Virus record (IMG/VR): IMGVR_UViG_3300030060_005860
Coordinates: 1-35,609 of that record
Source: a virus
DNA length: 35,609 nucleotides
Reading direction: 5' to 3' (one strand)
The notes under the pieces were generated by a model. The model was not told the DNA's origin, did no database searches, and saw nothing but the letters and a program-made list of their open reading frames with translations. Within the stretch, counting starts at the first letter, position 1. Every line of letters begins with the position of its first letter. Shown here piece after piece: positions 6,893 through 35,609 of this stretch. Both the position numbers and the translations under genes were made by a program.

Positions 6893-6914
6893 GAACAAAA
6901 AAGTTAGCAAACGA

Positions 6915-6928
6915 GATATTTATATAAG
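6915..6928 (+). promoter_or_regulatory. Candidate late promoter box
   Basis: GATATTTATATAAG stands in the 50-base gap after the Ala/Gly/Pro-rich gene, 15 bases before the ATG at 6943. It shares the ATATTTATA core with the other candidate late boxes in the window. The distance to the start codon is short, so the transcript leader would be very short if this is a true promoter. Confidence 0.45.
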
Positions 6929-6942
6929 TAACGAGAACTAAG

Positions 6943-7437
6943 ATGAAAAAAACAGAAAAACTATTAGAACTAATTAGAAAAGTTGTTAGAGAAGAAGTTA
7001 GATCCGTAATTCAAGAAGAGTTAGGATCTAAAAAGAAATTAACAAAGGAAGCAATACAACATGGTATGAACCTAAATGATATTGTAAATTCTCCTAAAAA
7101 CCCTTATGAACAAGGCACTCGTAAAAGAAAACAAAAAGAAGATTTTCAATTTACTAAAGATCCTGTTCTTAATAAAGTTCTAAACGAAACAGCAAATAAA
7201 GATGAGTGGCCAACTATGGGAGGTGCACCATTCACAGCTGGTAAAGAAGGATTAGCATCAATGATGGGTATGCAATCACCAGAACAAATGTTTGGTGGAA
7301 AACCATCTGTAGAACAAATGCTTCCTAATGATAGAAAACATGTACAGATAGATGATAACATGGCAGATATATTAACAAGAGACTATTCTCAACTAATGAA
7401 AAAAGTTGATGAAAAAGTAAAAAACAAGAGACCTTAA
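6943..7437 (+). CDS. Helical protein upstream of gp25, unknown function
   Basis: The product has 164 residues. Residues 1-30 form a charged amphipathic helix (LLELIRKVVREEVRSVIQEE) likely to pair as a coiled coil. The middle is Lys/Pro/Gly-rich and probably unstructured, with Met-rich stretches (LASMMGMQSPEQMFGG). The end is another helix (MADILTRDYSQLMKKVDEKV). This mix suggests a chaperone, scaffold or linker rather than an enzyme. No strong ribosome site is visible; GAGAACT precedes the ATG. The stop is four bases before gp25, so the two genes are coupled. Genes with a similar N-terminal helix are common beside gp25 in marine myoviruses, in my recollection, without known function. Confidence 0.72.
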   Translation: MKKTEKLLELIRKVVREEVRSVIQEELGSKKKLTKEAIQHGMNLNDIVNSPKNPYEQGTRKRKQKEDFQFTKDPVLNKVLNETANKDEWPTMGGAPFTAGKEGLASMMGMQSPEQMFGGKPSVEQMLPNDRKHVQIDDNMADILTRDYSQLMKKVDEKVKNKRP

Positions 7438-7440
7438 TAA

Positions 7441-7896
7441 ATGGCAATACCTCCTAGAAAAATATTTAGAATTAACCCAGCCGATGAAGATGAAAGAATT
7501 GCGGTTGGTATAGATTTGCCTCTTAGAGATAATAATGATTCTCCTTTTCCACAAACGAGAACTACTATTAGAGCTGCAGCTGCAAATATGAAAAATTTAA
7601 TTCTAACAAGAAAAGGAGAAAGACCATTTCACCCAACATTGGGTACTAGTATTTATGATTCTTTATTTGACCAAAACGTTGATGAAATGATAGGAAAAAT
7701 AGAAGAAGAAATAAATGAGGCAGTAGCTTATTGGTTACCTTATATACAAATAACAGACCTAGTTGTTGGAGTATCTGATAAACAATATGGCTTTGGTGAT
7801 AGATTTAATGGAGTAAGAATATCTATAAGTTTTACACTAGCAGGAAATAGGTTCGAAGAAGAAAGAATAGTCCTTGAAATAGGTGGAGTAGAATAA
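7441..7896 (+). CDS. 25: Baseplate wedge protein gp25 (IraD/gp25-like)
   Basis: This 151-residue protein is close to the usual size of T4 gp25. The diagnostic core lies at about residues 49-67: NMKNLILTRKGERPFHPTLG, followed by SIYDSLFDQ. The C-terminal beta-strands (GVRISISFTLAGNRFEEERI) complete the fold. In T4-type and simpler contractile tails gp25 joins the wedge to the sheath initiator and the hub. The stop codon overlaps the gp6 ATG (TAATG at 7894-7898), matching the common gp25-gp6 gene order. No clear Shine-Dalgarno sequence precedes its ATG, consistent with translational coupling to the gene upstream. Confidence 0.95.
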   Translation: MAIPPRKIFRINPADEDERIAVGIDLPLRDNNDSPFPQTRTTIRAAAANMKNLILTRKGERPFHPTLGTSIYDSLFDQNVDEMIGKIEEEINEAVAYWLPYIQITDLVVGVSDKQYGFGDRFNGVRISISFTLAGNRFEEERIVLEIGGVE

Positions 7897-12195: not shown

Positions 12196-15100
12196 ATGGC
12201 TTGGAACACGAAATATAAAGATGAAGACTTAAGGCTAATACCATCAAAGCCTATATTATCTGACTTTGGAAAGGCTCTAGATGCTGAAGATAGAGTAGAA
12301 CTTCATATTTACAGTCGAGATAACGATACACTTTTATTCTCAGATGCAGATATAACTAGCTATAAAGTAGCTGAAGGTGGTATTTTAGATAATGGTACTG
12401 TAAACCAAGATCCTGTTGTATTTTTAGATTTACATAACGATATAAGACAGTTTGTAAACTCAGGAACATTTAATGTAAAGTATTGTTTCTATAGAACTGT
12501 AGTTGGAAGTCCTGATTTATCTGTAAATGACTTGTTTTTAGATGAAATAAGTACTAGCAGAAAAGAAATAAGACTAAAAATTAGTGATGATGCATCTCAA
12601 GAAGAAAAAGAAATCTTCGAAGACTTTGCAGATAAACTATCAATAAAAGGAGATGTTGACCATTGGGTTGATATTCATGTTAACTTTGGAGATAACATAG
12701 TACCTTTAGCTGTAAATTGGTCTATAGATAAAATAACAACTCCAGAATTTCCATATTCTATTGTATTAAAATTATATGAGCCACTACCTGATAATATTGA
12801 TGTAAAAGCACCTTGTTGGATAGTACAAGAAATGATAACTCCTGTTAGGGAGACTGTTTTTGTTGAATCACCTGAAGTAGAAAAAGAAGTTAACTTTCTT
12901 GCACCACCAAACTTTGGAGCAGGAAGCGAAGATAATCTTGGAGGAGGTACAACTGGTTATGAAACATGGACTACTCTTACAAATGCAAAAGAAGAAGTTG
13001 TAAATAAAGTTCTTAATAGATATTTTTCAAGCAGCCTCGCAGATGTAAGACTTAGTATAGACTATAGAAGATTTTCGCACTTTATTAGATTTGGTTCTGC
13101 AAAATCTAGATTAGATAATTTCAAATATAAACTATCACAGGTAGAATTCTTTCAGGAAAAGATAGAAAATTTAACTACAAATTCTCCTGCTACAGCTAGT
13201 AATGCATCAATAACAGGTTCAACATACCACCAAAAAAATGTGCAAAATTTCAAAGATAAGCAGAATGAAATAATTGCAGGTTTTGATGGATATGAAAGAT
13301 TCTTATATGAAGAGTCAGCGTCTTATACTACTAGTTCACTTGGAGAATTTGTACCTGCAACTTGGCCAAAAGTTTCACCTAAGCCTTTGCCAAAAACTCC
13401 TTATGAACTTAGATCTGTAACTTCATCAGAGGCTATTGACTGGTTTACAGGAATGTACGCCACTGCATCTATATACGATAGAGAAAATATACATTCATTA
13501 GAAAACACTGCCATACCTTTACATATTCATGAAGATCCTACTTTAGGTAAAGATGAAAATATAAATAGTGAATATGTTAAGTTTGTTAATATGGTCGGCC
13601 AATTTTTTGACAACATTTATTTATATGTAACGGCTATACCTGAAACATGGGACAGACACAATGCTTTAGATGCAAAACTAATTGAAGGTCACTTTAGCGG
13701 TTCTGATATGTTATCAAAAGACTTAATCTACATGGGATTAAAGTCATTAGGATATAGTCAGTGTCTAAAAACAGATGAACAAGACTTATGGTCCTATGTA
13801 ATAGGTACAGATTCAGACGGAAACTTTGGAGATAAGCATAATTATTTTGCAACAAGTGATTGGTCATATTGGAATCAACCAGACGATCAGTTTGCATCGG
13901 CAAGTTATATTGCTGGTACTAGTGTATTTTCACAATCAGTAATACATGCTTCAGACTTTTATCAAACTTCACAATCTGTGCCTAGAGAAAATGTTAGACT
14001 AGAATTTGGTAAAAGATTATTAAACAATTTACCTCATCTGCTTAGAACTAAGGGAACTAAAGAAAACTTAAAGGCATATATGAATATATATGGTATACCT
14101 CAAAGTTTATTTAGAATAAAAGAATGGGGATCTCCAAAAGCTCCTAATTATTTTGACAATTCATACTATGAATATGAAACATTTAATTATAGGTTAAACT
14201 TTAATGGAACTTCATGTATTACTGCTTCTTGGGACGCAGTAACAGATCCTAGAATAATAGCAGATAATGGAGGAAGAACACAATATCCTGATACTATAGA
14301 ATTTAGATTCAAATTACCAGACATGTTAGAATATAATCTAAAGTGTGGTAAAAGACAGTTTAATGAAATAGCAAACAATGCTAATAAAAAGGATATGGTT
14401 GTTGTACAGATAAATTCTAGTTCATTTATTGCTGTAGAACATGTATCTGAGCATATACCTTCAGCAGATCAGTCAAAATATGATTTTCCTATCGGTGAAG
14501 ATAGTAAATATGGTAGAGTAAAGTTTGGATTAGGTGTAAATGATGGAACATATAAATATCCATCTTACTTTGTTTCTTGCTCTACAGATTGGGCACCTAT
14601 ATATGATGGAGATTTTTGGAATGTAATGGTTAGAAGAAATTCTCCATCTGCAACTGCTGTATCAAGCCAAATAACAGAAAACTTTACTTATGAGCTATTC
14701 TGTAAAAAGTCTACAGACTGGTCAAGGGCTACAATAACTCACGAATTTTCATCAAGCTTATCAACAAATGGAAGTACAACTGCAGGAAGACTTGCAAATA
14801 GTTCTTGGAATTCTGATGGTTTCCATGATGATACGTATGTTACAGGCTCATATTTTACTCCAGAAAACTCATCATCTAATTTTAATGGATATGCTGATGG
14901 TCTATTTGGATATAATTTTGATTCTTTCTTTATAGGAGGTGCAGTAGATAGTGTAGACTGGGGAATAAATAGAACTCCTGGAATAGACTATGAAAACTAT
15001 AGTGGTTCATTACAAGAATTCAGATTTTGGATGAAGCCATTAACTGAGTCTGCATTTAATCACCACGTACTTAATCCAATGGCTATTGATGGAAATACTT

Positions 15101-17583
15101 ATACTTCATCATATAATGACCTAATTGTAAGATATTCATTAGGAGCCGACCTTAAAACTTATGCATTATCAAATGGAACTGAGATTATATCTTCTCATCC
15201 AAACCAAGATATTCTTACACCATTTACAGACAATAGATCTACTTTTGCAACTGCAAGTGGATTTAATGGTGTAGTTGATTTTGAAGATGACCAAGAAAAA
15301 GTTGCAACAATCGTTCCTAATTATGTTGGATTATGTGTTGACCCTGACAAGGTTAGAGTACAAGAAAATTATTTAGATGGAAATCTTAGTGTAAACAAAA
15401 CAGCAGAAGCGTCTTTACCACAAGATAATGACCAAAACAGAGTCTCAATACAGATGACTCCAGTTGACCAAATAAATATTGATATTGAGCACCAACTAGG
15501 AGGAATTGAATTTAATGACCTTGTTGGAGATCCTAGAGCAAAATATAATGAATTTTATGCTGATGTTATATTTTATGACGAGCATTATTGGAAAAAACAT
15601 TTTGGTTCATTTAAGTACAATGAGTTTTTCAAGCTAATAAGATATTATGACGATACTGTTCTTTGCCAAATGAAAAAGAACGTTCCTGGTAGAAATAAGC
15701 CCGACTTTAATATTGCAGTAGAACCACATATATTAGAAAGACCTAGAATTCCTGTACATAGACCTACCCGTGTACCTCTTCATTTTGAAGGTTCTGCATC
15801 TGCAAGAGTTTTTGCACATGGTAATACTACCGAGTTAGGAAGATTCAAACATAATGGACCTGGAGATCCTTACTATAATAGTTGGGATGGAAACGGACCA
15901 GAAGAATCTAGATATGGTGACTTAGTTGCACCTAACCATAGGTTTGGTAATAGAGATGGTGCACATCAATTGCCTCAGCTACATCCTTCTTATGGAACAG
16001 GAGGTCAGAGAGAAAGAGAAAGAAATCCTGCAGGATTATTTAGAACAACTGTTGGAGAACTAGAAGCAACTATAAAACCTGCTTTTGAGCCTATAATTAA
16101 AGATGATATATTTATGTGTTGGGAAAGAGACCAACATGAAGGAGCTGCAAGATACGAATGGCATTTACCAGTAAATTGGGGAGATTCAAAAGGTGATTAT
16201 GTAGACTATTCTGTAACAGGAACAAATTCAAATTCAGCAACAAAGGCTAGATCTAAAATAAAATTAGCTGGAACTTTTCCTAATGCAGGTGTATCAGCTG
16301 TAGCCTATGATAATACGACTATAATACTAACTGCAACAGATGGAACCGTAGTAACGTTTACTTGTGATGACCCTCTAGGAGGTACAGGTTCAACAATCGC
16401 CGGATCTCAATTTGCATATAGTAATAATCCACTAACGCTTGCAACAAATATTAGAACTGCAATCAATGGACATTCTAAGTTTACTTGCGGAACTGTTCAT
16501 CAAGATGGTACAGTTGCACATTCATCTGGAGACCAAACTGCATTATATGTTGTACCTGTAACACAATCAACAGCAGGAGCAAATGGTAATACTACTATGT
16601 TTGGTACTTTCTTCCCACCTTATGGATATAATCCAAATGGTACTGGTGGAACAATTGCTTTATTCCAAGCTCATACTGCTAGTAGGTTCCATGTTATACC
16701 TGAAGAAACAGGTTTTTCTGGAGGTAGTGATGCAACAACAGATCCAAAAATAACTATAGTAACAGATAGTGTACGAACTTCAATAACTCAGTCTAACCCT
16801 TATTGGGAAAGAGATGTTTTAATGAATGTAAGTCACCCTATGGATCCTAGAGAACAGGAAAGATGGTATGATTTTAATAAACAAGAATATGTTTCAAGTA
16901 ATTTACTTCCTAATAAGCCAATGTTCGATAGGGCTGGAAACTATCCAGTAATAAATAATGGTTTAACTTCATACGCAGATAATAAAAGCTGTAGAGATAG
17001 AGGTAAAGAATGGTTCTTCCCTTTTATTAGTGACCAAAGAATTTCATTCTACAAACATACAGAACTACATAGATTTGCAACAGAACTTAGCCAATCTTTA
17101 GGAATAAAAGTACCTAGAATAGATTTTGGACAAGCAGATATTGGATATGGTAATTTAGATGGTCAAGCTATAGTTTCACATAGTGGTGCACCGATACGAA
17201 ACCTAAATGGAATATCTGTTTTAAGTAGATCTGCACAATATCAAGACTATAGAGCAAAAGGAATTCAAAATTTAATATATGACGGATGTATGATGTCAGC
17301 CTCAGATTTTAACGTAGATTCATCACAAACAATTGATGGTGGACCTGTTGTTGAAATAATAGACACTACACCGTTCACATTAACAGCTGCAGAGCCAACA
17401 TTAGGCGAAGGACCAGGTAGAGTATCTGGTGAAGGAATCGGTAAAGGTTTAGGAAGTTATAGTGGTAGACCAATAAACAGAGGTCCTGCGGCAGGTAGAG
17501 GACAAGCAATAACGGGTGGCAGATTTAATATTCAGCGATCACCGGCTGGAAGACCACAACCAAATGGAAATCAAATGTCGTGA
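12196..17583 (+). CDS. Very large baseplate/tail protein with tail-protein-I-like segment and LamG-like domain
   Basis: The product has 1795 residues. Residues about 600-636 (FGKRLLNNLPHLLRTKGTKE...YGIP) match the LLP.L...KGT...L...YGIP pattern of P2 tail protein I / T4 gp7-type wedge proteins. Residues about 660-945 look like a LamG/ConA-like sandwich: FNYRLNFNGTSCITASWD opens it, and YSGSLQEFRFWMKPLTESAF closes it. Residues about 1020-1190 include a phage-typical block (ADVIFYDEHYWKKHF...MKKNVPGRNKPDFNIAVEPH). Residues about 1350-1470 form a further beta-rich module (TTIILTATDGTVVTFTCDD, LATNIRTAINGHS, VTQSTAGANGNTT). The last 65 residues are Gly/Arg/Pro-rich and likely disordered. I infer the gp7/gpI partner of gp6 with grafted carbohydrate-binding domains. 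The ribosome site is GGGAAG. Confidence 0.8.
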   Translation: MAWNTKYKDEDLRLIPSKPILSDFGKALDAEDRVELHIYSRDNDTLLFSDADITSYKVAEGGILDNGTVNQDPVVFLDLHNDIRQFVNSGTFNVKYCFYRTVVGSPDLSVNDLFLDEISTSRKEIRLKISDDASQEEKEIFEDFADKLSIKGDVDHWVDIHVNFGDNIVPLAVNWSIDKITTPEFPYSIVLKLYEPLPDNIDVKAPCWIVQEMITPVRETVFVESPEVEKEVNFLAPPNFGAGSEDNLGGGTTGYETWTTLTNAKEEVVNKVLNRYFSSSLADVRLSIDYRRFSHFIRFGSAKSRLDNFKYKLSQVEFFQEKIENLTTNSPATASNASITGSTYHQKNVQNFKDKQNEIIAGFDGYERFLYEESASYTTSSLGEFVPATWPKVSPKPLPKTPYELRSVTSSEAIDWFTGMYATASIYDRENIHSLENTAIPLHIHEDPTLGKDENINSEYVKFVNMVGQFFDNIYLYVTAIPETWDRHNALDAKLIEGHFSGSDMLSKDLIYMGLKSLGYSQCLKTDEQDLWSYVIGTDSDGNFGDKHNYFATSDWSYWNQPDDQFASASYIAGTSVFSQSVIHASDFYQTSQSVPRENVRLEFGKRLLNNLPHLLRTKGTKENLKAYMNIYGIPQSLFRIKEWGSPKAPNYFDNSYYEYETFNYRLNFNGTSCITASWDAVTDPRIIADNGGRTQYPDTIEFRFKLPDMLEYNLKCGKRQFNEIANNANKKDMVVVQINSSSFIAVEHVSEHIPSADQSKYDFPIGEDSKYGRVKFGLGVNDGTYKYPSYFVSCSTDWAPIYDGDFWNVMVRRNSPSATAVSSQITENFTYELFCKKSTDWSRATITHEFSSSLSTNGSTTAGRLANSSWNSDGFHDDTYVTGSYFTPENSSSNFNGYADGLFGYNFDSFFIGGAVDSVDWGINRTPGIDYENYSGSLQEFRFWMKPLTESAFNHHVLNPMAIDGNTYTSSYNDLIVRYSLGADLKTYALSNGTEIISSHPNQDILTPFTDNRSTFATASGFNGVVDFEDDQEKVATIVPNYVGLCVDPDKVRVQENYLDGNLSVNKTAEASLPQDNDQNRVSIQMTPVDQINIDIEHQLGGIEFNDLVGDPRAKYNEFYADVIFYDEHYWKKHFGSFKYNEFFKLIRYYDDTVLCQMKKNVPGRNKPDFNIAVEPHILERPRIPVHRPTRVPLHFEGSASARVFAHGNTTELGRFKHNGPGDPYYNSWDGNGPEESRYGDLVAPNHRFGNRDGAHQLPQLHPSYGTGGQRERERNPAGLFRTTVGELEATIKPAFEPIIKDDIFMCWERDQHEGAARYEWHLPVNWGDSKGDYVDYSVTGTNSNSATKARSKIKLAGTFPNAGVSAVAYDNTTIILTATDGTVVTFTCDDPLGGTGSTIAGSQFAYSNNPLTLATNIRTAINGHSKFTCGTVHQDGTVAHSSGDQTALYVVPVTQSTAGANGNTTMFGTFFPPYGYNPNGTGGTIALFQAHTASRFHVIPEETGFSGGSDATTDPKITIVTDSVRTSITQSNPYWERDVLMNVSHPMDPREQERWYDFNKQEYVSSNLLPNKPMFDRAGNYPVINNGLTSYADNKSCRDRGKEWFFPFISDQRISFYKHTELHRFATELSQSLGIKVPRIDFGQADIGYGNLDGQAIVSHSGAPIRNLNGISVLSRSAQYQDYRAKGIQNLIYDGCMMSASDFNVDSSQTIDGGPVVEIIDTTPFTLTAAEPTLGEGPGRVSGEGIGKGLGSYSGRPINRGPAAGRGQAITGGRFNIQRSPAGRPQPNGNQMS

Positions 17584-24026: not shown

Positions 24027-24416
24027 ATGGCAAGAAGAATTAAAAAGATAAATGGGTATAGAAGCGGCTTTGAAAATAAGGTCGCTTCTGCACTTTCAGA
24101 ACAAAGTATAAGTTTTGAATACGAGGTTACACAAATAGAGTATATAAAGCCTCAAACAAACCATAAGTATACAGTAGATTTTACTTTACCAAATGGTATA
24201 TTGATAGAAACTAAAGGTAGATGGACAACTGAAGATCGTAAAAAGCATCTACTAATAAAAGACCAACACCCAAACTTAGATATTAGATTTGTTTTTCAAA
24301 ACCCAAAAGGAAAAATAAGAAAGGGTTCTAAAACAACTTATGCAGATTATTGCGATAAGCATGGAATCTTATGGGCAGATAAAGAAATACCTAACGAATG
24401 GTTACTGGAAAAATAG
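24027..24416 (+). CDS. Phage endonuclease I-like Holliday-junction resolvase
   Basis: The 129-residue product is close in size to T7 endonuclease I (149). The PD-(D/E)XK-type active site can be aligned: Glu16 in GYRSGFENKVASAL, Asp51 in YTVDFTLPNG and Glu61-x-Lys63 in ILIETKGRWT. Between them lies EVTQIEYIKPQTNHKY, the usual beta hairpin. The C-terminal half (HPNLDIRFVFQNPKGKIRKG, YADYCDKHGILWAD) is also typical of the family. These enzymes cut branched DNA such as four-way junctions before packaging, and T7-type resolvases can stand in for T4 gp49. The gene opens a recombination/replication cluster with primase and Mre11-Rad50. AAAGG precedes the ATG. Confidence 0.9.
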   Translation: MARRIKKINGYRSGFENKVASALSEQSISFEYEVTQIEYIKPQTNHKYTVDFTLPNGILIETKGRWTTEDRKKHLLIKDQHPNLDIRFVFQNPKGKIRKGSKTTYADYCDKHGILWADKEIPNEWLLEK

Positions 24417-24466: not shown

Positions 24467-25387
24467 ATGGGTAATTTAAGAATCATACAAATATTAGAAC
24501 AAGTACTTGGTCGTTCAAAAACAAATGAACAGACTGGAGAAGTTGGCTTTCATTGTCCTTTTTGCAAGCATCATAAAAGAAAGTTTAATCTAAATTTAGA
24601 AACAGAAAAATGGCATTGTTGGGTATGTAGTGTTAAAGGTAGAACTATATCTTCACTATTCAAAAAATTAAATGTTTCTAGAGAAATAATAAGTAGATTA
24701 TCTAAACTTACTGGTAAAGCAATAAAGGTAGATGATAATAAAAAGTATGACGACTTATCTTTGCCTAGTGAATATATTCCACTCTATTTAGCAAATAAGA
24801 AAAGCCCTGAATATAAGAATGCTATAAATTATCTTCTTGGTAGAGATTTAAGTGGAACTGATATTTTAAGATATGGAATAGGTTATTGTGAAAGTGGAAG
24901 ATATAGTGGTATGATAATTATACCTAGTTATGATTGTGATGGAAATCTAAACTTTTTTACTGGTAGAAGCTACTATAAAGATGCAACATATAAGCATAAT
25001 AATCCTAGAGTTAGTAAAGATATTATTGGCTTTGATTTATATATTAACTGGGATGAGCCAATAACAATTGTTGAAGGAGTATTTGATGCAATAGCAGTTA
25101 GGCATAATGCAATACCGTTATTTGGTAAACTAATGCTAGATAGTCTTAAAACAAAAATAATAAAAAATAAAGTAAATAGAATAAATATTGCACTAGATTC
25201 AGATGCATTAGAACATTCTATAAAAATGGCAGAATATTTTATGAGTTTAGATAAGGAAGTACATATTGTAGACTTAGGAGAATCAGATCCCAGTGAAATG
25301 GGACATGAAAACTTTCAAGATTTACTAGATGAATCTAAACCATTAACATTTGGAAAATTGATGGAGTATAAATTTATATGCAAATAG
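24467..25387 (+). CDS. DNA primase with zinc-finger and TOPRIM domains (gp61-like)
   Basis: The product has 306 residues. The N-terminal zinc-binding domain has Cys30-x2-Cys33 and Cys51-x2-Cys54 (GFHCPFCKHHKRKFNLNLE; WHCWVCSVKG). A primase core follows, with YGIGYCESGRYSGMIIIPSYD and FTGRSYYKDATYKH. The TOPRIM motifs are Glu203 in ITIVEGVFDAIAV and Asp244-x-Asp246 in NIALDSDALEHS. This is the DnaG/gp61 arrangement, and the length is similar to T4 gp61 (342). It makes RNA primers for the lagging strand, working with a helicase not in this window. No Shine-Dalgarno sequence precedes ATG 24467. The 3' end overlaps the next gene by ten bases, so primase and the Mre11-Rad50 fusion are translationally coupled. 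Confidence 0.92.
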   Translation: MGNLRIIQILEQVLGRSKTNEQTGEVGFHCPFCKHHKRKFNLNLETEKWHCWVCSVKGRTISSLFKKLNVSREIISRLSKLTGKAIKVDDNKKYDDLSLPSEYIPLYLANKKSPEYKNAINYLLGRDLSGTDILRYGIGYCESGRYSGMIIIPSYDCDGNLNFFTGRSYYKDATYKHNNPRVSKDIIGFDLYINWDEPITIVEGVFDAIAVRHNAIPLFGKLMLDSLKTKIIKNKVNRINIALDSDALEHSIKMAEYFMSLDKEVHIVDLGESDPSEMGHENFQDLLDESKPLTFGKLMEYKFICK

Positions 25388-28300
25388 ATATTGGATTTGA
25401 TAAAGTAGATAAGATTCTACATGTAGCTGATATACATATTAGAAACTTCAAAAGGCACAAGGAATACAGGCAAGTATTTAGAAAACTATATAAAGAAGCA
25501 AAGCTTTTACCAAAGAATAGTTTAATATATGTAGCTGGTGATATTGTTCACACAAAAACAGATATTAGTCCTGAGCTAGTAGAGTTAACTTCTGAGTTTT
25601 TTAGAAAGTTGGCTGATATTAGACCAACAATAGTAATTACTGGTAATCATGACGCCAACCTAAATAATTCTAGTAGATTAGATGCGCTATCACCAATAAT
25701 AGATAATCTTGCACATTCAAACCTTCACTACTTAAAAAATAGTGGAATATACAGAGTTTCTAATATAGATTTTATAGTCATGTCTGTATTTGATGACCCT
25801 AAAGACTTCCCAGATGCTACACAAGCATCGAATATTAAAATTGGTTTACATCATGGACCGGTACATAATTCTGTAACTGATATTGGCTATGTTGTAAACA
25901 ATGAAAGCCTAAAACAGTCTGTATTTAAGGGATGTGACCTAGTTTTATTAGGTGATATACACAAAAGACAATATTTAGATAAAAATGAAACTATAGCCTA
26001 TGCTGGTTCTCTAATACAACAAAACTTTGGTGAAACTTTTGAAAACCATGGTTATATGTTATGGGATATGAATACACTAAAAGGTGAATTTATTGATATA
26101 CATAACGATTATGGATATTATACTGTTGACATGATAGATGGTAAATTGCCAAACATAGATAATATACCTAAATATCCAAGATTAAGAATAAGAACAACAA
26201 ATACTACACAGGCAGAACTGAAAAAAGGACTGGTTGAAATAAGAAAAAAGGCTAGAGTTAGAGATGTTATTCATATAAAAACAGATAAGCTTGCTAATAT
26301 ATCTAATAACTCAAAAAATGCAATTGAAATAACAAAGGATATTAGAGATTCTAATTATCAAAATGAACTAATTGTAGATTATTTAGAAAGAAATTATGAC
26401 CTAGATCCTGATTTATTAAATAGAATAAGAAAAATAAATAGAGACCTAAATTCATTATTACCTGATGTAGAAATAAGTAGAAATCTTAGTTGGAAGCCAA
26501 AGACTTTTGAGTTTTCAAACATGTTTAGTTATGGCGAAAATAATAAAATAAACTTTGAAAATATGAATGGAACTGTCGGAGTATTTGCACCAAACCATTC
26601 AGGTAAGTCTGCAATATTAGATGCAGTTGCATATTGTTTATTTGACAAATGCTCAAGAACAAAGTCAGCATCAGAAGTTATGAATACTTCTAAGAATAAT
26701 TTTAGTTGTACTTTTAATTTTGAAATAGATGGTATAGATTATTTTATAGAAAGAAGAGCTAAAAGGTCTCATACTGGCCATGTAAGAGTAGACGTAGATT
26801 TTTGGATGATTGACGAAGCAGGAGAAAAAGTATCACTAAATGGAGAACAAAGAGTATATACAAATAGAAATATTCGTGGTTACTTAGGATATTATGAAGA
26901 TTTTGTTCTAACTGCTCTATCACTACAAAACAATAATACAGGATTTATAGATAAAAGCCAAGTGGAAAAGAAAGATTTATTGGCACAGTTTCTAGATATT
27001 ACAGTATTTGAAGAACTATATAGAGTTGCAAATGAAGAAATAAAAGAAGTTGAAGTTTTACTTAAGCACTTCAAAGACTTAGATTTTACTCAACAACTAA
27101 TAGATTCTGAAGAGCAATTACAAATACATGAAGCAGACTATAAAAACTATGAGAAAATAAAAGATTCTATAAATAAAAAACGTGAAAAGCTAAACGATAA
27201 AATTATAGAACAAACTTCTAATTTATTAAAACTAGACAGTATTACCGACATTAAAGAATTAAAGTTAAAGAAGAAAGATATATTATTAGAAATATCTTCA
27301 GCAGAAGAAAGATTGGCTAAATATGATAGATATTTTTCTCAAAACACTCCTAGACTTAGAGAGCTTACAAGATTAGAAAAGAAATATAATGCAGAAGATA
27401 TTGATGATAGACTTAAAAAGCTAAAATTAACGAGAACAGAACAGACTACTGTAAAGTCCGAACTAGATAAACTTAAAATTATTATTAAAAATAAGTTAGA
27501 TAAGTTAAAAGCAATAGGTCAATTTGACCCTAATTGTGATTTTTGTAAGAATACACCTTTTGTTCAAAGTGCTTTTAAGATAGAAAATGAATTAAGAGAT
27601 GACAAAATCTCAGTAAATAGACTTTTAGATAGACAATCAAAGTTAGATTCATTAGTTGGAATATTAGAACCAGTTGAAACAGAGTCAGTAGAATTAAAAA
27701 ATATTGTTGATGAACATAATAAATTATCAAAGTATCAATCTGAGATAAAGTTAAAAAGAGTTCAAAGAAGATCTGAGTTACGAGAAAAAAATAGAAATTT
27801 AACTTCTGTAGAAAAAGAAATAGATAAATACTATAAGAATGAAGAAAATCTTCGACATAATTCAAAGGTACAAAAGAAAATAGACTCTCTAAAAGAACAA
27901 CTATCAGAAGTATCTACTGAACAAGTAGAAAATTCTAATAATTTACAAGAAGCATTTAGTAAGTTATCTATGGTAAAACAGTCTATAGAATCTACACATT
28001 CATCAATAGAACAGGCGCATGACCTAGAAGAAAAGTATAAGGCTTATGAATATTATCTAAACTCTATACAAAGAAATGGTGTACCATACGAGCTAATATC
28101 TAATATTTTACCATATATACAAGAAGAGGTAAATACAATTTTATCTCAGATAGTTGATTTTAGTATTGAATTTAGTGTAGATGGTAAAAATATAAATACT
28201 TTAATATCTTATGGAGACAATAAAAAATGGGCACTAGAATTAACATCTGGTATGGAAAAGTTCATAAGTTCTCTAGCCATTAGAGTCGGTTTAATAAATG

Positions 28301-28518
28301 TTTCTAATCTGCCAAGACCAAACTTCTTAGCAATTGATGAAGGTTTTGGTAATTTAGATGCTAATAATCTAAACTCTATATTTATGTTGTTTGATTATCT
28401 AAAAACAGAATTCGATTATGTAATAGTTATCAGCCATATTGACCTGATGAGAGATATTACAGATAATTTATTAGAAATAAGCAAGTCTTCAGGATTAAGT
28501 AACGTAGTCTATAACTAA
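25378..28518 (+). CDS. 46/47: Single-chain Mre11-Rad50 (gp47-gp46 / SbcD-SbcC) fusion
   Basis: The product has 1046 residues. Residues 1-about 350 are a calcineurin-like nuclease: Asp18-x-His20 (HVADIHIR), Gly54-Asp55 (VAGDIVH), Asn90-His91-Asp92 (TGNHD), HHGPVHN, LLGDIHKR and an AGSLIQQNFGE capping region. Residues about 375-1046 are a Rad50-type ATPase: Walker A near 404-411 (APNHSGKS, with Ala replacing the usual first Gly), a long coiled coil broken by a zinc hook Cys720-Asp-Phe-Cys723, signature TSGMEKF at 956-962 and Walker B FLAIDEGFGNLD with Asp987-Glu988. In T4 these are separate genes, 47 and 46. No stop, frameshift or start signal is visible at the junction. The complex resects DNA ends for recombination-dependent replication and can degrade host DNA; a fused chain would fix 1:1 stoichiometry (inference). 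Confidence 0.93.
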   Translation: MQIDIGFDKVDKILHVADIHIRNFKRHKEYRQVFRKLYKEAKLLPKNSLIYVAGDIVHTKTDISPELVELTSEFFRKLADIRPTIVITGNHDANLNNSSRLDALSPIIDNLAHSNLHYLKNSGIYRVSNIDFIVMSVFDDPKDFPDATQASNIKIGLHHGPVHNSVTDIGYVVNNESLKQSVFKGCDLVLLGDIHKRQYLDKNETIAYAGSLIQQNFGETFENHGYMLWDMNTLKGEFIDIHNDYGYYTVDMIDGKLPNIDNIPKYPRLRIRTTNTTQAELKKGLVEIRKKARVRDVIHIKTDKLANISNNSKNAIEITKDIRDSNYQNELIVDYLERNYDLDPDLLNRIRKINRDLNSLLPDVEISRNLSWKPKTFEFSNMFSYGENNKINFENMNGTVGVFAPNHSGKSAILDAVAYCLFDKCSRTKSASEVMNTSKNNFSCTFNFEIDGIDYFIERRAKRSHTGHVRVDVDFWMIDEAGEKVSLNGEQRVYTNRNIRGYLGYYEDFVLTALSLQNNNTGFIDKSQVEKKDLLAQFLDITVFEELYRVANEEIKEVEVLLKHFKDLDFTQQLIDSEEQLQIHEADYKNYEKIKDSINKKREKLNDKIIEQTSNLLKLDSITDIKELKLKKKDILLEISSAEERLAKYDRYFSQNTPRLRELTRLEKKYNAEDIDDRLKKLKLTRTEQTTVKSELDKLKIIIKNKLDKLKAIGQFDPNCDFCKNTPFVQSAFKIENELRDDKISVNRLLDRQSKLDSLVGILEPVETESVELKNIVDEHNKLSKYQSEIKLKRVQRRSELREKNRNLTSVEKEIDKYYKNEENLRHNSKVQKKIDSLKEQLSEVSTEQVENSNNLQEAFSKLSMVKQSIESTHSSIEQAHDLEEKYKAYEYYLNSIQRNGVPYELISNILPYIQEEVNTILSQIVDFSIEFSVDGKNINTLISYGDNKKWALELTSGMEKFISSLAIRVGLINVSNLPRPNFLAIDEGFGNLDANNLNSIFMLFDYLKTEFDYVIVISHIDLMRDITDNLLEISKSSGLSNVVYN

Positions 28519-28582: not shown

Positions 28583-31500
28583 GTGGCGACAATACAAAGA
28601 ACATTCAAGGACCCTACATTACAGAACCCCTTGAAATACCTGGGTTACGATTCTATACCTGTTGAGATAGAAGATTCAGGAATTTCAGAGGACTATTTTA
28701 ATGTACAAGGCATAGGACAAGAACTTCATGCAGGTAAGAATTTATTCTATATAAAGCCTGACCCCGAAACATTAGTAGAAAATGCTGAAATCGGAGTAGA
28801 AGTTCTAGATGCTGACGGTGACCTAGTACCAGTACGTCTTTTAGATAATAGAAGAAGTGATGGTTCTATAGGACTAATCATTGAGGTAGATGAGACCAGA
28901 CCTAAAGGATATGGTCAAGTAACTATTGTTTCAGTTGCAAAAGGAAGAGTACTCAATGCTAGAATTGCTCCAGTTAGAAATCCTGGTGTATTTAATATAA
29001 GATGGGCAAAAAGAGTATATATAAATAGAGACGCAAATAATACGTCTGAAATAACATATATTACTCCACCAAAAATTGAAGTATCTGAATTAAAACTTCC
29101 TTACTATGAGCATTACTTTAATACAAAGCTTACTTCTTCTCTATCTTCAGCCCTAACTTCTGCAAACCCAGTAATACAAAATGAAATAACATGTTCTATA
29201 TATCAACTTTCTTCATCATATAATACAAATGCAAAAATATCTTATGATAAGAGAGGAGAACAAATATACTTAGAGCTAACAGGATCTGATTTTGGTGGAT
29301 TTGTTAGTGATATGGAAAATGGTACTATATTTTTTGATGCAAAAGATATAGTTGGAATAGACCCTGAGGCTACGGCGCTAAATACTTTAGTTGAAGATGG
29401 AGATGGATTCGATGATATAAATTCAGAAGGTTCTTATTTCACTAGTATACTCCAAGTACTTTCACCATCTAGAGTATTAGCATCTAGCCCTCATACAACT
29501 TTTCAAGGATCAGGTCAATCATTGCATGAAGTAATGCACCAAAACTTTGAACATAGTGATTTTACACTAACATGGGCAATGCCACCTTATTCTCACAGTA
29601 GATACCCACACCCAGATCCACCAGAATCAGAATCAATGTTCAAAACCTCATATGCTGGGGTTGTTATTGATGACTTAGACCCTTATTCAGGTGAAGTACA
29701 TAGAATAAAAACATACATAAGAGCAGAATCAAGGCCAGATGATTATCACCTTTGCTCTGATTTACCTGTAGAGGCACAAGAAATGCTAGTTGTTTCAATG
29801 TCTCCTCACTATAATAAAAATAGATTTAAGAATATACCATGTGGAAGATTTGATAGATTAAATTCTTCTGTAGATACTTCAGACGTAAGATACTTTGGAA
29901 ATTATTGGTACACTACTGCAGTTGGACTAGAAGCTCCAACACTTTCAATAGTATCTGAATCACTCGCTACGCCAACTGTAGAACAACCTCCAAATACTGT
30001 TCTAGACTTTATACCCATGCGACCGTCTCTTAGGGTTGGTTCACTTGGAGAAGTTTCACCATTAGATGATAATGTTGGAAGGAACCCAAGTGTACAACCT
30101 CTAAAGGTGGTAGAATTGCGAAGTAATGTTTCTGCATCATTTAAGCAGGACAAAGTTTACGTTTTAGAAGTAAGTGCCTTTGTTAAAAGTAGAGAAATAA
30201 CAACCTTAGAAGATAATCACCTTGGTGTTGCACATGGTATTGGAACATTCAAGATAGGAGCTCCACAAAATTCATCTGGAGGCCAAGCACCTGGATTCCA
30301 AGTTCAACCTCCACTTTATGGTGGTATTGTATCTGGTCAAGGGGTAAATTCACAAAATGTATTTACTATACCCGATGGACCTGTGTTAACTGCACCAAGG
30401 CTAGATATTTTTGGTTTCGGAGATGCATTTCAAGATGATACAAACCGTATAGGTTTAGGAAAACTTATTGGCGAAATAAATGATGTCAACCAACCACAAG
30501 GTAGAGTTGTTGATATTAAAAAGGTAGAAGGATATTCTGGTGTAGACCATGTACTTGAAGTAAACTTTAGATTCCCGTTCAAAGCAGACGCAAATGCTAT
30601 TGGAGAATTTAGATTTGAAATAGAACGAGGATTGTGGTATTTTCAAGAAATATCTGTTAAACCTTATGAAAGAGCTGGTGTATCTACTCACAATTATAAC
30701 TATTTAGTACCACTACCTAGAGGTTTATCTCATCCAGATAAAAGAGATGTTTTTGACTTCATGTTTGAATTCTATAATATAGAAGGACACATGTGTGCAG
30801 AAAAAGTCTATATAGATAATGTTTGTATGGACAATGAATGGACTATTGCACCAACAAGTATCGTTGTAGAAAATATAGATAATGTCGAAAATAATATAGA
30901 AATAAACGGTCCTCTAGTTGTCAATAATCTAACTAATATAACAAGTTCAACTTCAAATATAGATATTACAAATAACTTTGGAGATATATTAGTATATAAT
31001 ACAGGTTCAGGAGAAATTGGTCATGTACAATTAGGTTGTGCTTTAGACTTTATGGATAAAGATAATTGTTGTTGCCATCTACATGCAGATACAAACATTT
31101 ATATCTTTATAGATAATACGAGTATGAAGGTAACTCAGCAAAATCCTGACGGTCTTTCTGCAGCTCAATATACTCCAGGACTTATTACTAGATGGGTAAT
31201 TACCAAGTTTGAAAAAGATATGAGGGAGAGATACCCTTATTGGAAAGGAAATATATTTGTAGGACAAGGATCTGGAGGACCAGGTCAAGGTACATTACCA
31301 GCTGAAAGATGGTTATCTATGATGTCATGGCCGGCAGTTGGTAATCAGCGAATAGATAATGATGGTATAGGACAAGGTATTACTGGTAGTATGGCATCCG
31401 TTACTTGGGGAGAATTTCCTTATGGAACAACTGCAAATGATGAATCTATCGGAGCATACGTAAATTCAGATGAGTTTGAAGCGTACGGATATCGAACAAA

Positions 31501-34500
31501 TGAGTATTATCTTGAAAATTCACCAATCATAAAAGATGGTGTACCAGATACAAATGTAATTGTATTTACAATGGTTGATGAAACAGATGCAACCACAAAC
31601 TCGGTTACTGGTGGACCAGGTAATGGTTATCACTATAGAAATAACGACTCAAGTTATTCATCACAGGCTACAGACCTAACAGGTACATCTGCAGATTTTA
31701 CAAATCATTTAACGAGTCACTATAAAGCAGATTACGGACTATTTATCGGTAAGGCGCATCCATTATATACTTGCTTTGCAGGTTATGTATATGCTCTTCC
31801 TAGTTCTTTATCAACAACACACCCAGTAAGACAACACTTTGCATTACATATTTATGCGGCAATAGAAACTGGTATTGTAGATTCAGATGATTTTATATCT
31901 GAAACACCTACAGGTGGTAATCTTAGCGCAATAACGGGTAGTAATCCTTATGCTGGCGTAAACTCTGTAGGAACTAATTCACCATGGTATCAAGGTGGAA
32001 TATACGGGTTAAAGAGTCAATCCATAAAAGAAAAACATGACTTTGTTGGAGGTATAAGTGGATGGTATTCTGAAAGTTTAGTTTATCCTGTATCACTAGT
32101 AGAAGCAAACAAGTCGGGTTCATGGCTAAGAGGTCAAGCAAGCTTCAGTGCAGATTTATTTGAGTTTATCAATGGTGATTCTATAGGAGTTAAAGTTGAT
32201 GGTACAACAATCTGTGTAAATGAAGCCAATGAATTATTTGCAAGACATACTGGTTCTTATACAGGTTCATTTACAGGAGATATAGTTACCACTAATATAA
32301 ACATAAATAATGGTGGTGTAAACACTTATATAATTGGTGATACTTTCGTCATAAATAGTACAACTACTAATATTTTTGGTGGTGATACTTTCATAAATAA
32401 TCTAAGCATAAATAAGTTCGATATAACAAATATTACTAATATAGATAATAGTACAACTTCTGTTAGAAATGAATATAATAACTTTGTTGTATATAATAAC
32501 ACGACGAATGAAGTAGCAGAACTTAAATTAGGTTGTGCACTTGATTTTATGGATAGTGAAAACTGTTGTTGTCACCTTCATGCAGATACCAACATCTATA
32601 TTTTTATTGATAACACTAGTTTAATTTTTAGTGGTTCTGCACCAGATAGTCCTGCAATATTGACAAGATATGTTATTCCTAAATTTGAAAAAGATATGCG
32701 AGAAAGATACTCGTATTGGAAAGGAAATATTTATGTAGGAGCTGGAGATACTGGCGGTGTATTTAATGTTAGAGAAAGATGGTTATCTTGGATGTCATGG
32801 CCAGCTGTTGGTAATCAAAACGAACTATCTGCAGGATCTGGTATCACAGGAAGCTTAGTTTCAGTTAGATGGGATGCATCCGGATCCGGTACAGATTTTG
32901 CAGCAGGAACTTATGCTAATTCTGATGATTATCATGCGTATGGATATAGTTCATCTGCATATTATCTAGAAAATTCACCTATTAGTTCATCTGGAGAAAG
33001 TGATAAAAATGTTATTGTATTTACTCTTGTTGATGAAACACATCAGAGTTATCATAATAATTCTCAACAAACACAAGGACCACAAGGTGTAGCCGCAGAT
33101 TGGGCAAACGAACCTCAAGACGACTACAAGCGTGATTATGGATTATTTATAGGAGAAGCTCATCCTAAATACTCTTGTTTTTCTGGATATGTATATGCTT
33201 TACCATCCGGCCAAAACATAGCACATCCTGTAAGGCAACAATTTGCTTTACATATTTATGGTGCGATAGAAACATCTGCAGTTGATTCAGCAGACTTTAT
33301 AGGATTTACTGCAACTGGAGGTAATCTTAGTGCAATAACTGGTTCGAATCCTTATGCTCATGCATCTAACTCAGTTGGTACTTTGTCTCCACACTATCAA
33401 GGTGGAATATATGGACTAAAGAGTCAGTCTATAAAGGAAAAGCACGACTTTGCTCAAGGTGCACAAACATGGCATGCAACAAATGGAAATGTACATCCTC
33501 ACCAAGAATTAAACTCAACATCATCATGGGAATCAGGTCAACAGGCGTTTTCAAGTGACCTATTTGACTTTATAGATGGTGATTCTATAGGAGTTAGAGT
33601 AGATGCAAAAACTATATGTGTAAATGAAGCCAATGAATTATTTGCAGAAACAGGATCTATGGTTGTTTCTCAGTCTATTTCATCTATAACTGCTTCTTTT
33701 GCACTAACAGCATCTCACGCAGTATCAGCTTCTCACGAAATAACATTTGAACTTTCATCTTCTAATGCACAAACTGCTTCTCTTGCATTAAGTGGAACAG
33801 GTTCTTTTACAGGTAGTTTTACAGGAATAAGTAATACTACAGGCTCATTTACCGGTTCAGGACACATAACATCAGCATCCTTTGCCGTAACTGCTTCACA
33901 TGTAATAGGAGGTGGTAGTGGTGATGGAGATAATTTAGGTAATCATACTGCAACGCAAGATATAAACCTAGATGGAAATGATATTATTGGAATAGATAAT
34001 TTAATAGTATCTGGAAATATAACTGCTTCTGGTACTGTAAGTTCTTCTGGAGGTTTTATTGGAGATTTAACCGGTACGGCAAGTTATGGAGCAGATAATG
34101 ACTGGTACAAACAAGGAGTTTCAAATGCTCTTACAGACCCACAAATAACCGATCAGATATATCATAATGGTCTAGTCGGTATAGGAGATTTTTCTAGTGA
34201 TTCAGTAACTCATCAATTACAAGTTGAAGGAAAGACTAGAATAGGTAATTCAACCGACGATAGGCATGAATTTACAGGTTCAATACACTTATCACACTCT
34301 GCAATGTCTATATTTACTGGTAGTGGTAAGCTTGCGTTTGGTTTACAAAATACAAATGCACAATTTACTCAGGCAAATACTAGACTGGTACAATTCTATA
34401 GTGGAAGTGATAGAGCAGTATTCTTAAATGTTACCAACTGGGAAACAGCTTCAGCATTTACAGCCGCAGGTGGAAGTCCTGGTGACGCATCACCTTCTAC

Positions 34501-35609
34501 AAACGGCCCAAGAACAGGAATTTCTGTTAATGGAGTAAATTCAAGGGCAAACTATGGATTAGGCGGAACAAGAGGAACAGCAGGAGGAAATATATCCTTC
34601 CATCCAGATACCTATGAAGGTAATACAAATGGTAATGACTTAGGTGATGGAGGTGACGTAGATTCTTTAGGTAGAAGATTATTACAAGAAGTTTTACATA
34701 TTTCTACCGGAGGTAATCCTCAACCTAGTATAAATATACATGCAAGAGGTGATAGAGGCCAGCAGATACGATTCTTTGTTGGAAATGACGACGCAAGAAA
34801 TACTGGTGGACCAACTGTAGAAACTCAAAGAATGACCATAATCAATGAAGGTCTTATTGGTATTGGTACTCATGACCCTCAGCGTAGACTTCATATTTCT
34901 GAAAGTGGAAATACATATAATGGTCAAAAAGTACCTCTTAGAGTAAATAACTTTACAGAAGGACCTGCACAAAATGTTCTTGTATGGGACGAAAATACAG
35001 GTGATGTCTATAAAAAGCCACTATCAGAGTTACCGTCTGGAGATGCTGGTATAAATACATTTATTATTGGTGATACTTTTGTTATAGGACCACATAACAC
35101 ATTTATTAACAATGTTTCTATATTCTCAGATTCTACATTTATTACTAATTTAACTGCAAGCAATGGTCAATTTACAGGTTCATTCACAGGTTCATTTACT
35201 GGAGATGGTAGTGGACTAACAGGAGTTACTGGTGAATGGGACGGAACACTTAATGGTGATGCACAAATAACTGGTTCACTAGTTTTAACTTCAAACTTTA
35301 CAGCATCAAGTAACGTAAGTGTTAGTGGAGATATTGAGGTAAGAAATATAACGGCATCAGGACAAGTTAGTGCAAGTGGTGGTTTTGTTGGAGATTTAAC
35401 TGGAACGGCAAGTTATGGTGCAGACAATGACTGGTACAAAAGAGGAGCATCTGATGCACTTACAGATCCTACGATAACTGATGAAATATATCACAATGGA
35501 AACGTAGGTATAGGAGACTTTTCTTCAGATACCGTTACTCATAAACTACAAGTTGAAGGAAAAACAAGAATAGGTAATTCCACAGACGATAGGCATGAAT
35601 TTACTGGTT
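28583..35609 (+). CDS. Giant virion adhesin/fibre protein with duplicated vWA-like domain (3' end outside window)
   Basis: The frame is open from GTG 28583 to the window end, giving at least 2342 residues. An in-frame TAG at 28574-28576 bounds it, GGAG at 28568-28571 is the ribosome site, and no ATG competes. Residues 1-210 are a beta-rich phage module (VEVLDADGDLVPVRLLDN; VFNIRWAKRVYINRD). Residues 210-770 are further sandwiches. Two vWA-like repeats follow (about 797-1220 and 1299-1688), each with LGCALDFMD, NCCCHLHADTNIYIFIDNTS, a helix FEKDMRER, and a strand VIVFT.VDET. Residues from about 1695 are shaft repeats (ITASFALTASHAVSASHE, GSFTGSFTG), with a second duplicated module (VGIGDFSSD...LQVEGKTRIGNSTDD). 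I infer a long fibre or large tail adhesin. The end and any head domain or chaperone lie beyond the window. Confidence 0.88.
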   Translation, partial: MATIQRTFKDPTLQNPLKYLGYDSIPVEIEDSGISEDYFNVQGIGQELHAGKNLFYIKPDPETLVENAEIGVEVLDADGDLVPVRLLDNRRSDGSIGLIIEVDETRPKGYGQVTIVSVAKGRVLNARIAPVRNPGVFNIRWAKRVYINRDANNTSEITYITPPKIEVSELKLPYYEHYFNTKLTSSLSSALTSANPVIQNEITCSIYQLSSSYNTNAKISYDKRGEQIYLELTGSDFGGFVSDMENGTIFFDAKDIVGIDPEATALNTLVEDGDGFDDINSEGSYFTSILQVLSPSRVLASSPHTTFQGSGQSLHEVMHQNFEHSDFTLTWAMPPYSHSRYPHPDPPESESMFKTSYAGVVIDDLDPYSGEVHRIKTYIRAESRPDDYHLCSDLPVEAQEMLVVSMSPHYNKNRFKNIPCGRFDRLNSSVDTSDVRYFGNYWYTTAVGLEAPTLSIVSESLATPTVEQPPNTVLDFIPMRPSLRVGSLGEVSPLDDNVGRNPSVQPLKVVELRSNVSASFKQDKVYVLEVSAFVKSREITTLEDNHLGVAHGIGTFKIGAPQNSSGGQAPGFQVQPPLYGGIVSGQGVNSQNVFTIPDGPVLTAPRLDIFGFGDAFQDDTNRIGLGKLIGEINDVNQPQGRVVDIKKVEGYSGVDHVLEVNFRFPFKADANAIGEFRFEIERGLWYFQEISVKPYERAGVSTHNYNYLVPLPRGLSHPDKRDVFDFMFEFYNIEGHMCAEKVYIDNVCMDNEWTIAPTSIVVENIDNVENNIEINGPLVVNNLTNITSSTSNIDITNNFGDILVYNTGSGEIGHVQLGCALDFMDKDNCCCHLHADTNIYIFIDNTSMKVTQQNPDGLSAAQYTPGLITRWVITKFEKDMRERYPYWKGNIFVGQGSGGPGQGTLPAERWLSMMSWPAVGNQRIDNDGIGQGITGSMASVTWGEFPYGTTANDESIGAYVNSDEFEAYGYRTNEYYLENSPIIKDGVPDTNVIVFTMVDETDATTNSVTGGPGNGYHYRNNDSSYSSQATDLTGTSADFTNHLTSHYKADYGLFIGKAHPLYTCFAGYVYALPSSLSTTHPVRQHFALHIYAAIETGIVDSDDFISETPTGGNLSAITGSNPYAGVNSVGTNSPWYQGGIYGLKSQSIKEKHDFVGGISGWYSESLVYPVSLVEANKSGSWLRGQASFSADLFEFINGDSIGVKVDGTTICVNEANELFARHTGSYTGSFTGDIVTTNININNGGVNTYIIGDTFVINSTTTNIFGGDTFINNLSINKFDITNITNIDNSTTSVRNEYNNFVVYNNTTNEVAELKLGCALDFMDSENCCCHLHADTNIYIFIDNTSLIFSGSAPDSPAILTRYVIPKFEKDMRERYSYWKGNIYVGAGDTGGVFNVRERWLSWMSWPAVGNQNELSAGSGITGSLVSVRWDASGSGTDFAAGTYANSDDYHAYGYSSSAYYLENSPISSSGESDKNVIVFTLVDETHQSYHNNSQQTQGPQGVAADWANEPQDDYKRDYGLFIGEAHPKYSCFSGYVYALPSGQNIAHPVRQQFALHIYGAIETSAVDSADFIGFTATGGNLSAITGSNPYAHASNSVGTLSPHYQGGIYGLKSQSIKEKHDFAQGAQTWHATNGNVHPHQELNSTSSWESGQQAFSSDLFDFIDGDSIGVRVDAKTICVNEANELFAETGSMVVSQSISSITASFALTASHAVSASHEITFELSSSNAQTASLALSGTGSFTGSFTGISNTTGSFTGSGHITSASFAVTASHVIGGGSGDGDNLGNHTATQDINLDGNDIIGIDNLIVSGNITASGTVSSSGGFIGDLTGTASYGADNDWYKQGVSNALTDPQITDQIYHNGLVGIGDFSSDSVTHQLQVEGKTRIGNSTDDRHEFTGSIHLSHSAMSIFTGSGKLAFGLQNTNAQFTQANTRLVQFYSGSDRAVFLNVTNWETASAFTAAGGSPGDASPSTNGPRTGISVNGVNSRANYGLGGTRGTAGGNISFHPDTYEGNTNGNDLGDGGDVDSLGRRLLQEVLHISTGGNPQPSINIHARGDRGQQIRFFVGNDDARNTGGPTVETQRMTIINEGLIGIGTHDPQRRLHISESGNTYNGQKVPLRVNNFTEGPAQNVLVWDENTGDVYKKPLSELPSGDAGINTFIIGDTFVIGPHNTFINNVSIFSDSTFITNLTASNGQFTGSFTGSFTGDGSGLTGVTGEWDGTLNGDAQITGSLVLTSNFTASSNVSVSGDIEVRNITASGQVSASGGFVGDLTGTASYGADNDWYKRGASDALTDPTITDEIYHNGNVGIGDFSSDTVTHKLQVEGKTRIGNSTDDRHEFTG
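30971..32242 (+). repeat. vWA-like domain, repeat 1 (coding)
   Basis: This copy starts at NNFGDILVYN and ends at NEANELFA. Landmarks are the Cys triplet at residues 829-831, the strand with Asp844 (IFIDNTSM), and Asp999-Glu1000 in VIVFTMVDET. Between them are SWPAVGN, GGNLSAITGSNPYA, YQGGIYGLKSQSIKEKHDF and FINGDSIGV, all of which recur in repeat 2. The protein is clearly similar while synonymous sites differ widely, so the duplication is old. Confidence 0.88.
32477..33646 (+). repeat. vWA-like domain, repeat 2 (coding)
   Basis: This second copy of the preceding domain is slightly shorter, opens with NNFVVYNN and closes with the same NEANELFA. Corresponding residues are the Cys triplet in NCCCHLHAD, Asp1343 (IFIDNTSL) and Asp1484-Glu1485 (VFTLVDET). 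The two copies are separated by an Asn/Thr/Ile-rich linker containing IIGDTFVI. Confidence 0.88.
34049..34280 (+). repeat. Fibre module repeat, copy 1 (coding)
   Basis: The copy encodes GGFIGDLTGTASYGADNDWY, a Q/A/L/T segment, IYHNG.VGIGDFSSD, then LQVEGKTRIGNSTDDRHEFT. Copy 2 begins 1329 bases downstream, in frame. The two are more alike in DNA than the vWA-like pair, suggesting a later duplication or recombinational homogenisation. Confidence 0.85.
35378..35609 (+). repeat. Fibre module repeat, copy 2 (coding, cut by window end)
   Basis: It encodes the same module as the copy at 34049, with substitutions such as I to V in GGFVGDL and Q to R after DNDWYK. It is cut by the window end at HEFTG. 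More copies may follow outside the window. Confidence 0.82.

Follow-up and report, generated by a model that had tools for sequence, protein, structure and literature searches.

A phage gene that encodes Mre11-type nuclease and Rad50-type ATPase in a single reading frame belongs to a known class of fused proteins

The virus fragment IMGVR_UViG_3300030060_005860 from IMG/VR, a 35.6 kb record analysed over all of its 35,609 nucleotides (hereafter the window), carries a gene that encodes an Mre11-type (SbcD) nuclease and its Rad50-type (SbcC) ATPase partner as one intact frame, the nuclease first. Its product is very probably a single-chain phage form of the Mre11–Rad50 complex (SbcCD; gp47–gp46 in phage T4), of the fusion type known from Mimivirus R555. 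Fused Mre11–Rad50 proteins were described in 2011, and this one is an unremarkable, well-preserved example of that known class. The initial annotation of the window had proposed a single frame of 1046 codons at 25378-28518, nuclease first and with a zinc hook; these coordinates are exact, both domains are significant and the hook is present. Pfam places Metallophos at residues 12-196 (E = 3.1e-13) and AAA_23 at residues 380-623 (E = 1.8e-6), while phrog_100 (SbcD) matches residues 10-350 (E = 7.4e-29) and phrog_77 (SbcC) residues 286-1045 (E = 2e-41). The NCBIfam SbcD and SbcC/Rad50 matches fall under their curated cut-offs, as expected of a distant phage version.

The single frame is conserved among relatives. 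Twelve were found in a first scan of viral contigs; both halves lie in one frame in 10 of them, and the other two (L009 and L013) are cut by a contig end. A second viral scan gave 565 relatives. Of the best 80, a choice that biases the fused share towards full-length matches, 79 have one frame and the last (L066) stays open past Walker A to the end of its contig. Bacterial and archaeal assemblies provided four loci: one fused (L097), two cut by contig ends (L098 and L100) and one (L099) with a stand-alone nuclease open reading frame of 277 residues and no ATPase frame directly after it. In the complete genome of Microcystis phage Mel-JY01 (190 kb), the fusion is one coding sequence (WWT39521.1, ‘AAA domain containing protein’) whose product is 41% identical to the window protein over the whole length. 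Nothing else in Mel-JY01 matches Metallophos, and phrog_77 has its one strong match (E = 1.3e-45) in the fusion, so the fusion appears to replace the split pair in this phage; the two other phrog_77 matches are weak (E = 7e-6 and 1.8e-4) and lie on short inner stretches of the profile, presumed to be coiled coil. We found no paper on Mel-JY01 in the open PMC literature.

One relative carries an insertion. In the 484 kb uncultured phage LR756508.1 (L015), the SbcD part is interrupted at 6598-7661, between residues 198 and 207 and just past the GDIH motif, by approximately 1 kb holding an open reading frame of 305 residues with HNH-type and TnsA-like nuclease matches. The insert looks like a homing element; Rfam has no match at the gathering score, introns included, in either the window or L015.

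Residue counts over 77 rows refer to an alignment of fusion proteins (A2); the other contigs are 42-96% identical to the window protein. By our choice, partial or near-duplicate rows (L006, L007, L009, L012, L013, L028, L030, L034, L052, L066, L079, L083, L089 and L092) were omitted; the alignment also excludes the window itself (L001) as well as L014-L018 and L098-L100, which are partial or come from other sources. The stretch D324-F379, which joins the two halves, measures 55-57 residues in 77/77 rows. Comparison of residues 321-376 with three relatives at 81-84% identity gave non-synonymous divergence (dN) of 0.056-0.079 and synonymous divergence (dS) of 0.76 and 1.68, the third dS being saturated; by these values the junction is under purifying selection. 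The chance that faulty sequencing or assembly of one contig created the fusion is practically nil: conserved relatives refute it, as the identical frame layout recurs in many contigs over the above range of identity and in the complete Mel-JY01, and dS is high with low dN across the junction. A sequencing error that removed a stop codon, considered in the initial annotation, does not apply either, because numerous independent contigs, as well as complete phage genomes, keep the frame.

The active-site motifs of both enzymes are read in this frame. In the nuclease these are DIH (18-20), GDIVH (54-58), GNHD (89-92), HG (159-160) and GDIH (192-195), which make up the five phosphoesterase motifs with their metal ligands, one of them D193 where His is usual. 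In the ATPase, Walker A (APNHSGKS, 404-411), the signature (TSGME, 956-960) and Walker B (FLAIDE, 983-988) are joined by the D-loop (D994), the His switch (H1020) and a coiled coil with CxxC, completing the Rad50/SbcC set. D18, D55, H58, N90, H91, D92, H159, D193 and H195 are invariant in 77/77 rows, as are A404, N406, G409-K410-S411, S957-G958-M959-E960, D987, E988, D994 and H1020; the hook cysteines C720 and C723 are present in 77/77. H20 is His in 73/77 rows and Gln in 4/77. The claim of complete motif sets holds in that every motif is present with almost invariant catalytic positions, but the GHxH metal-ligand motif of SbcD/Mre11 is GDxH here. The replacement of the first Walker A Gly by Ala was correctly noticed and is fixed in the clade (77/77).

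The distribution of these variants was followed in a tree with 20 fused rows and 9 split ones, the latter selected by name or for their resemblance to the window; the ATPase of the row StaphBS1 is cut, and the aligned YerGN1 row is missing nuclease motifs one and two. At the GHxH/GDxH position, His stands in 9/9 split rows, whereas the fused rows have Asp in 16/20 and His in 4/20. GDxH as a mark of fusion was rejected on account of these four rows. The Walker A Ala occurs in all six rows of the window clade, Mel-JY01 included, and is absent from the other 23, in a column blurred by inserts or odd residues in the Bacillus, Listeria, Enterococcus, Staphylococcus, CBB and XacN1 rows. The signature Met is found in 10 rows, those of the window clade and of the LR756501/PTm1/PAU/MA9V1 branch. 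The altered set fixed in 77/77 rows (Walker A Ala, SGM, GDxH) could mean that, in this clade of aquatic phages, the covalent tether made room for an enzyme with different gating, for example a nuclease less dependent on ATP hydrolysis than SbcCD, but we consider this unlikely. GDxH and SGM are also seen in fused phages that lack the Ala, and the fused XacN1 keeps GHxH; consequently, the active-site changes track lineage more than fusion.

An AlphaFold2 model computed on the 77-row alignment has a mean predicted local distance difference test score of 82.5 and a predicted template modelling score of 0.53, the latter making the relative placement of domains unreliable. It lays out the nuclease and cap, two helices (325-339 and 344-359), a linker, the ATPase and the coil as listed in Table 1. 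By VIA-align, nuclease and cap (model residues 10-301) superpose on Staphylococcus aureus SbcD (7dog_A; Z 25.2, root-mean-square deviation 3.2, 271 aligned) and the ATPase part (372-1046) on Escherichia coli SbcC (7yzo_D; Z 30.3, deviation 3.4, 352 aligned). The two predicted helices at 325-359 form a candidate helix–loop–helix; the VIA-align nuclease rows stop short of them. The best viral structural matches, in BFVD, are giant-virus DNA-repair proteins of similar or greater length, with Tupanvirus at the top (E = 5.1e-76). The nine best (E = 5e-76 to 7e-50, 17-25% identity, 969-1417 residues) include Harvfovirus, Yasminevirus, Terrestrivirus, Catovirus, Pyramimonas orientalis virus and Tetraselmis virus besides two nameless entries, and they support close kinship with the fusions of giant viruses; Tenacibaculum pT24 and PTm1 are among the lower matches.

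In the assembly that we would expect, two chains would pair via their nuclease domains and ATPase heads into the usual 2:2 arrangement, the Mre11 helix–loop–helix would sit at the coiled-coil base, and the linker would connect it to the ATPase. ATP binding would then close the heads over DNA, the nuclease would trim or nick ends, and the product may enter recombination-dependent replication and repair, in which the neighbouring primase and endonuclease I resolvase would take part. We infer this function, DNA-end resection for recombination-dependent replication, from the families and the neighbours of the gene. The initial annotation had suggested that fixed stoichiometry could alter ATP-gated cutting. 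The canonical Mre11–Rad50 complex is already 2:2. As the 11-residue linker is, moreover, compatible with the known geometry of the complex as given in PMC3175470, a large change in ATP-gated cutting would not be expected.

It is very unlikely that the gene yields two proteins in practice, an internal start or proteolysis freeing a separate Rad50-like ATPase. Some ATG, GTG or TTG is present in the aligned region 322-381 of 62/77 relatives, and 5/77 also have a four-base Shine–Dalgarno-like match ahead of such a codon, but these five candidate starts are scattered and share no common position, and the length of the junction is near-constant. The window itself has no in-frame ATG, GTG or TTG between codons 257 and 382, which disposes of the internal start near codon 360 envisaged earlier. 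M382 is without a four-base ribosome-site match, and translation from it would yield an ATPase lacking its first strand (371-380), which ends just ahead of this residue. An internal start was rejected for the window.

Several points weigh against a working single-chain complex as the product. The sequence alone leaves room for proteolytic processing of the fusion. The window is a fragment, and its own genome could hold a separate SbcC or SbcD elsewhere. The change of Gly to Ala in Walker A and of SGG to SGM in the signature could weaken ATP handling, Asp occupies the GHxH ligand position of Mre11, and the modelled placement of the domains carries the uncertainty given above.

The rarity implied by the initial annotation was not borne out: such fusions are published (PMC3175470) and recurrent in many phages. 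Besides Mimivirus R555, Yoshida, Claverie and Ogata (2011) list twelve sequences with the fusion, which belong to bacteria, plasmids, eukaryotes and Bacillus phage 0305phi8-36, and they argue that R555-like metagenomic genes, which adjoin a primase and a T7-like endonuclease, are mostly viral (PMC3175470). In the open PMC literature, two papers name Mimivirus R555, and theirs is one of them. According to a survey of jumbo phages, SbcC and SbcD are practically universal in this group (PMC7824862). We found no paper on an SbcCD fusion in jumbo phages in the open PMC literature.

Our search for fused gp47–gp46 in other phages recovered fusions in several lineages, on separate tree branches. With the IME392 fusion as query, 19 of 78 matching phage records cover at least 80% of it; with that of LR756501, 11 of 13 do. 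A single coding sequence is found in IME392, Acinetobacter Ab1-TPeters, Rhizobium Y65, Vibrio 150E35-1, Vibrio Va2, Cobetia Carin-5 and Yersinia GN1, and also in Thermus phiLo, Tenacibaculum PTm1, Sphingomonas PAU, Chryseobacterium MA9V-1, Xanthomonas phiXF1 and Xanthomonas XacN1. Pfam gave a phosphoesterase together with an ATPase-type match in 7 of nine such phage proteins; in Ab1-TPeters and PTm1 it detected the ATPase side only, the nuclease motifs being visible in the alignment. Among phages and giant viruses, Mre11–Rad50 fusions prove to be common. In LR756501.1 (a 735 kb phage), a second, separate SbcC-like match (670999-672753, E = 3.7e-74) with several in-frame stops inside accompanies the intact fusion.

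The starred branches of the final tree force at least two changes (gains or losses of fusion). Smaller trees (16 fused rows with 5 or 6 split rows) required one change only, so the count depends on sampling. A single origin of all fusions lost its support when XacN1 (fused) was added, because it pairs with CBB (split) at 100/99 and two changes are then forced. The XacN1 gene (L116, 2596-5895) encodes a fused SbcDC of 1099 residues, and CBB, its closest sampled relative, has two genes 12 bases apart. XacN1 is a candidate for a separate fusion event.

Judged by the published description in PMC3175470, the window protein shares with R555 the nuclease-first order, a predicted Mre11 helix–loop–helix and a short linker, as well as both reported R555 substitutions, His in GDxxH and Asp in GDxH; the R555-like metagenomic scaffolds have a phage primase and a T7-like endonuclease nearby, as the window does. 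R555 is longer (1351 versus 1046 residues), and the window gene lies beside tailed-phage genes. E. coli SbcCD and T4 gp47–gp46 have the same two domain folds, motifs and zinc hook, with sbcD before sbcC in both, but are two proteins with GHxH, a Gly-first Walker A and the signature SGG (E. coli) or SEG (T4). The fusions of the IME392/Acinetobacter/Rhizobium/Vibrio/Thermus phiLo type hold nuclease and ATPase in one coding sequence on a separate branch, IME392 being approximately 21% identical to the window protein; those of the Tenacibaculum PTm1/Sphingomonas PAU type (phrog_35725) and of XacN1 also lie on tree branches separate from the window.

The gene lies in a conserved block with the primase and endonuclease I (Table 1). 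For the neighbour counts, 89 loci were entered, L013 was omitted and only relatives with enough flank were counted. The primase is upstream of the fusion in 86/86 relatives with more than 1.3 kb of flank, at most 63 bases away in 79 and 172-729 bases away in 7; endonuclease I is upstream in 52/74 relatives with more than 2.2 kb. Mel-JY01 has the same order of nuclease, primase and fusion, but with a 174 bp gene between primase and fusion and an upstream nuclease annotated as GIY-YIG. This block speaks against a defence or conflict ATPase–nuclease of Lamassu type in place of a replication and repair enzyme. The PADLOC model of LmuB (PDLC03859) does match residues 386-1032 (E = 5e-28), and Lamassu LmuACB entries are among the Foldseek matches; however, LmuB is itself a Rad50-like protein, and phrog_77 and the Rad50/SbcC structures fit better, which makes a defence role extremely unlikely.

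Table 1. Coordinates of the fused gene, its parts and its upstream neighbours in the window
Feature	Position (strand)	Basis
T7-type endonuclease I (Holliday junction resolvase)	24027..24416 (+)	Phage_endo_I, E = 1.5e-58
DnaG-like primase gene	24467..25387 (+)	phrog_47, E = 2.3e-37; overlaps fusion start by 10 bases
GGAG, likely Shine–Dalgarno of the fusion gene	25363..25366 (+)	Upstream sequence; putative function
Fused SbcD(Mre11)–SbcC(Rad50) gene, 1046 residues	25378..28518 (+)	ATG at 25378, stop ends at 28518, no internal stop; domain matches and frame kept in relatives
Mre11 phosphoesterase and capping domain, residues 1-301	25378..26280 (+)	Metallophos 12-196; VIA-align to S. aureus SbcD 7dog_A
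Helix–loop–helix, residues 325-359, candidate Rad50-binding domain of Mre11	26350..26454 (+)	Model helices; putative role after Mre11 helix–loop–helix in PMC3175470
Linker, 11 residues (360-370), no in-frame start codon	26455..26487 (+)	Model secondary structure
Rad50 N-terminal ATPase half, residues 371-569	26488..27084 (+)	AAA_23; VIA-align to E. coli SbcC 7yzo_D
Walker A variant APNHSGKS, residues 404-411	26587-26610 (+)	
Antiparallel coiled coil, residues 570-712 and 727-897	27085..28068 (+)	Model helices
Zinc-hook CxxC (CDFC 720-723; C720, C723)	27535-27546 (+)	
Rad50 C-terminal ATPase half, residues 898-1046: signature TSGME, Walker B, D-loop, H1020	28069..28515 (+)	Motif alignment; VIA-align

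Directly after the fusion, an open frame of at least 2342 residues (28583-35608) without a Pfam match runs off the end of the window, and similar sequence also trails the fusion in several relatives. Downstream of a baseplate wedge gene lies an open reading frame of 1795 residues (12196-17583) that Pfam does not match; the window also encodes a ClpP-type head maturation protease (1526-2161; PF00574, E = 2.7e-34).

The finding alone opens no new question. It supports the 2011 proposal that the R555-like genes of aquatic metagenomes are largely phage-borne, and it delimits a well-bounded, abundant clade of natural single-chain Mre11–Rad50 enzymes, to which a sequenced cyanophage contributes a relative; these are a possible simple one-gene system for structural work.

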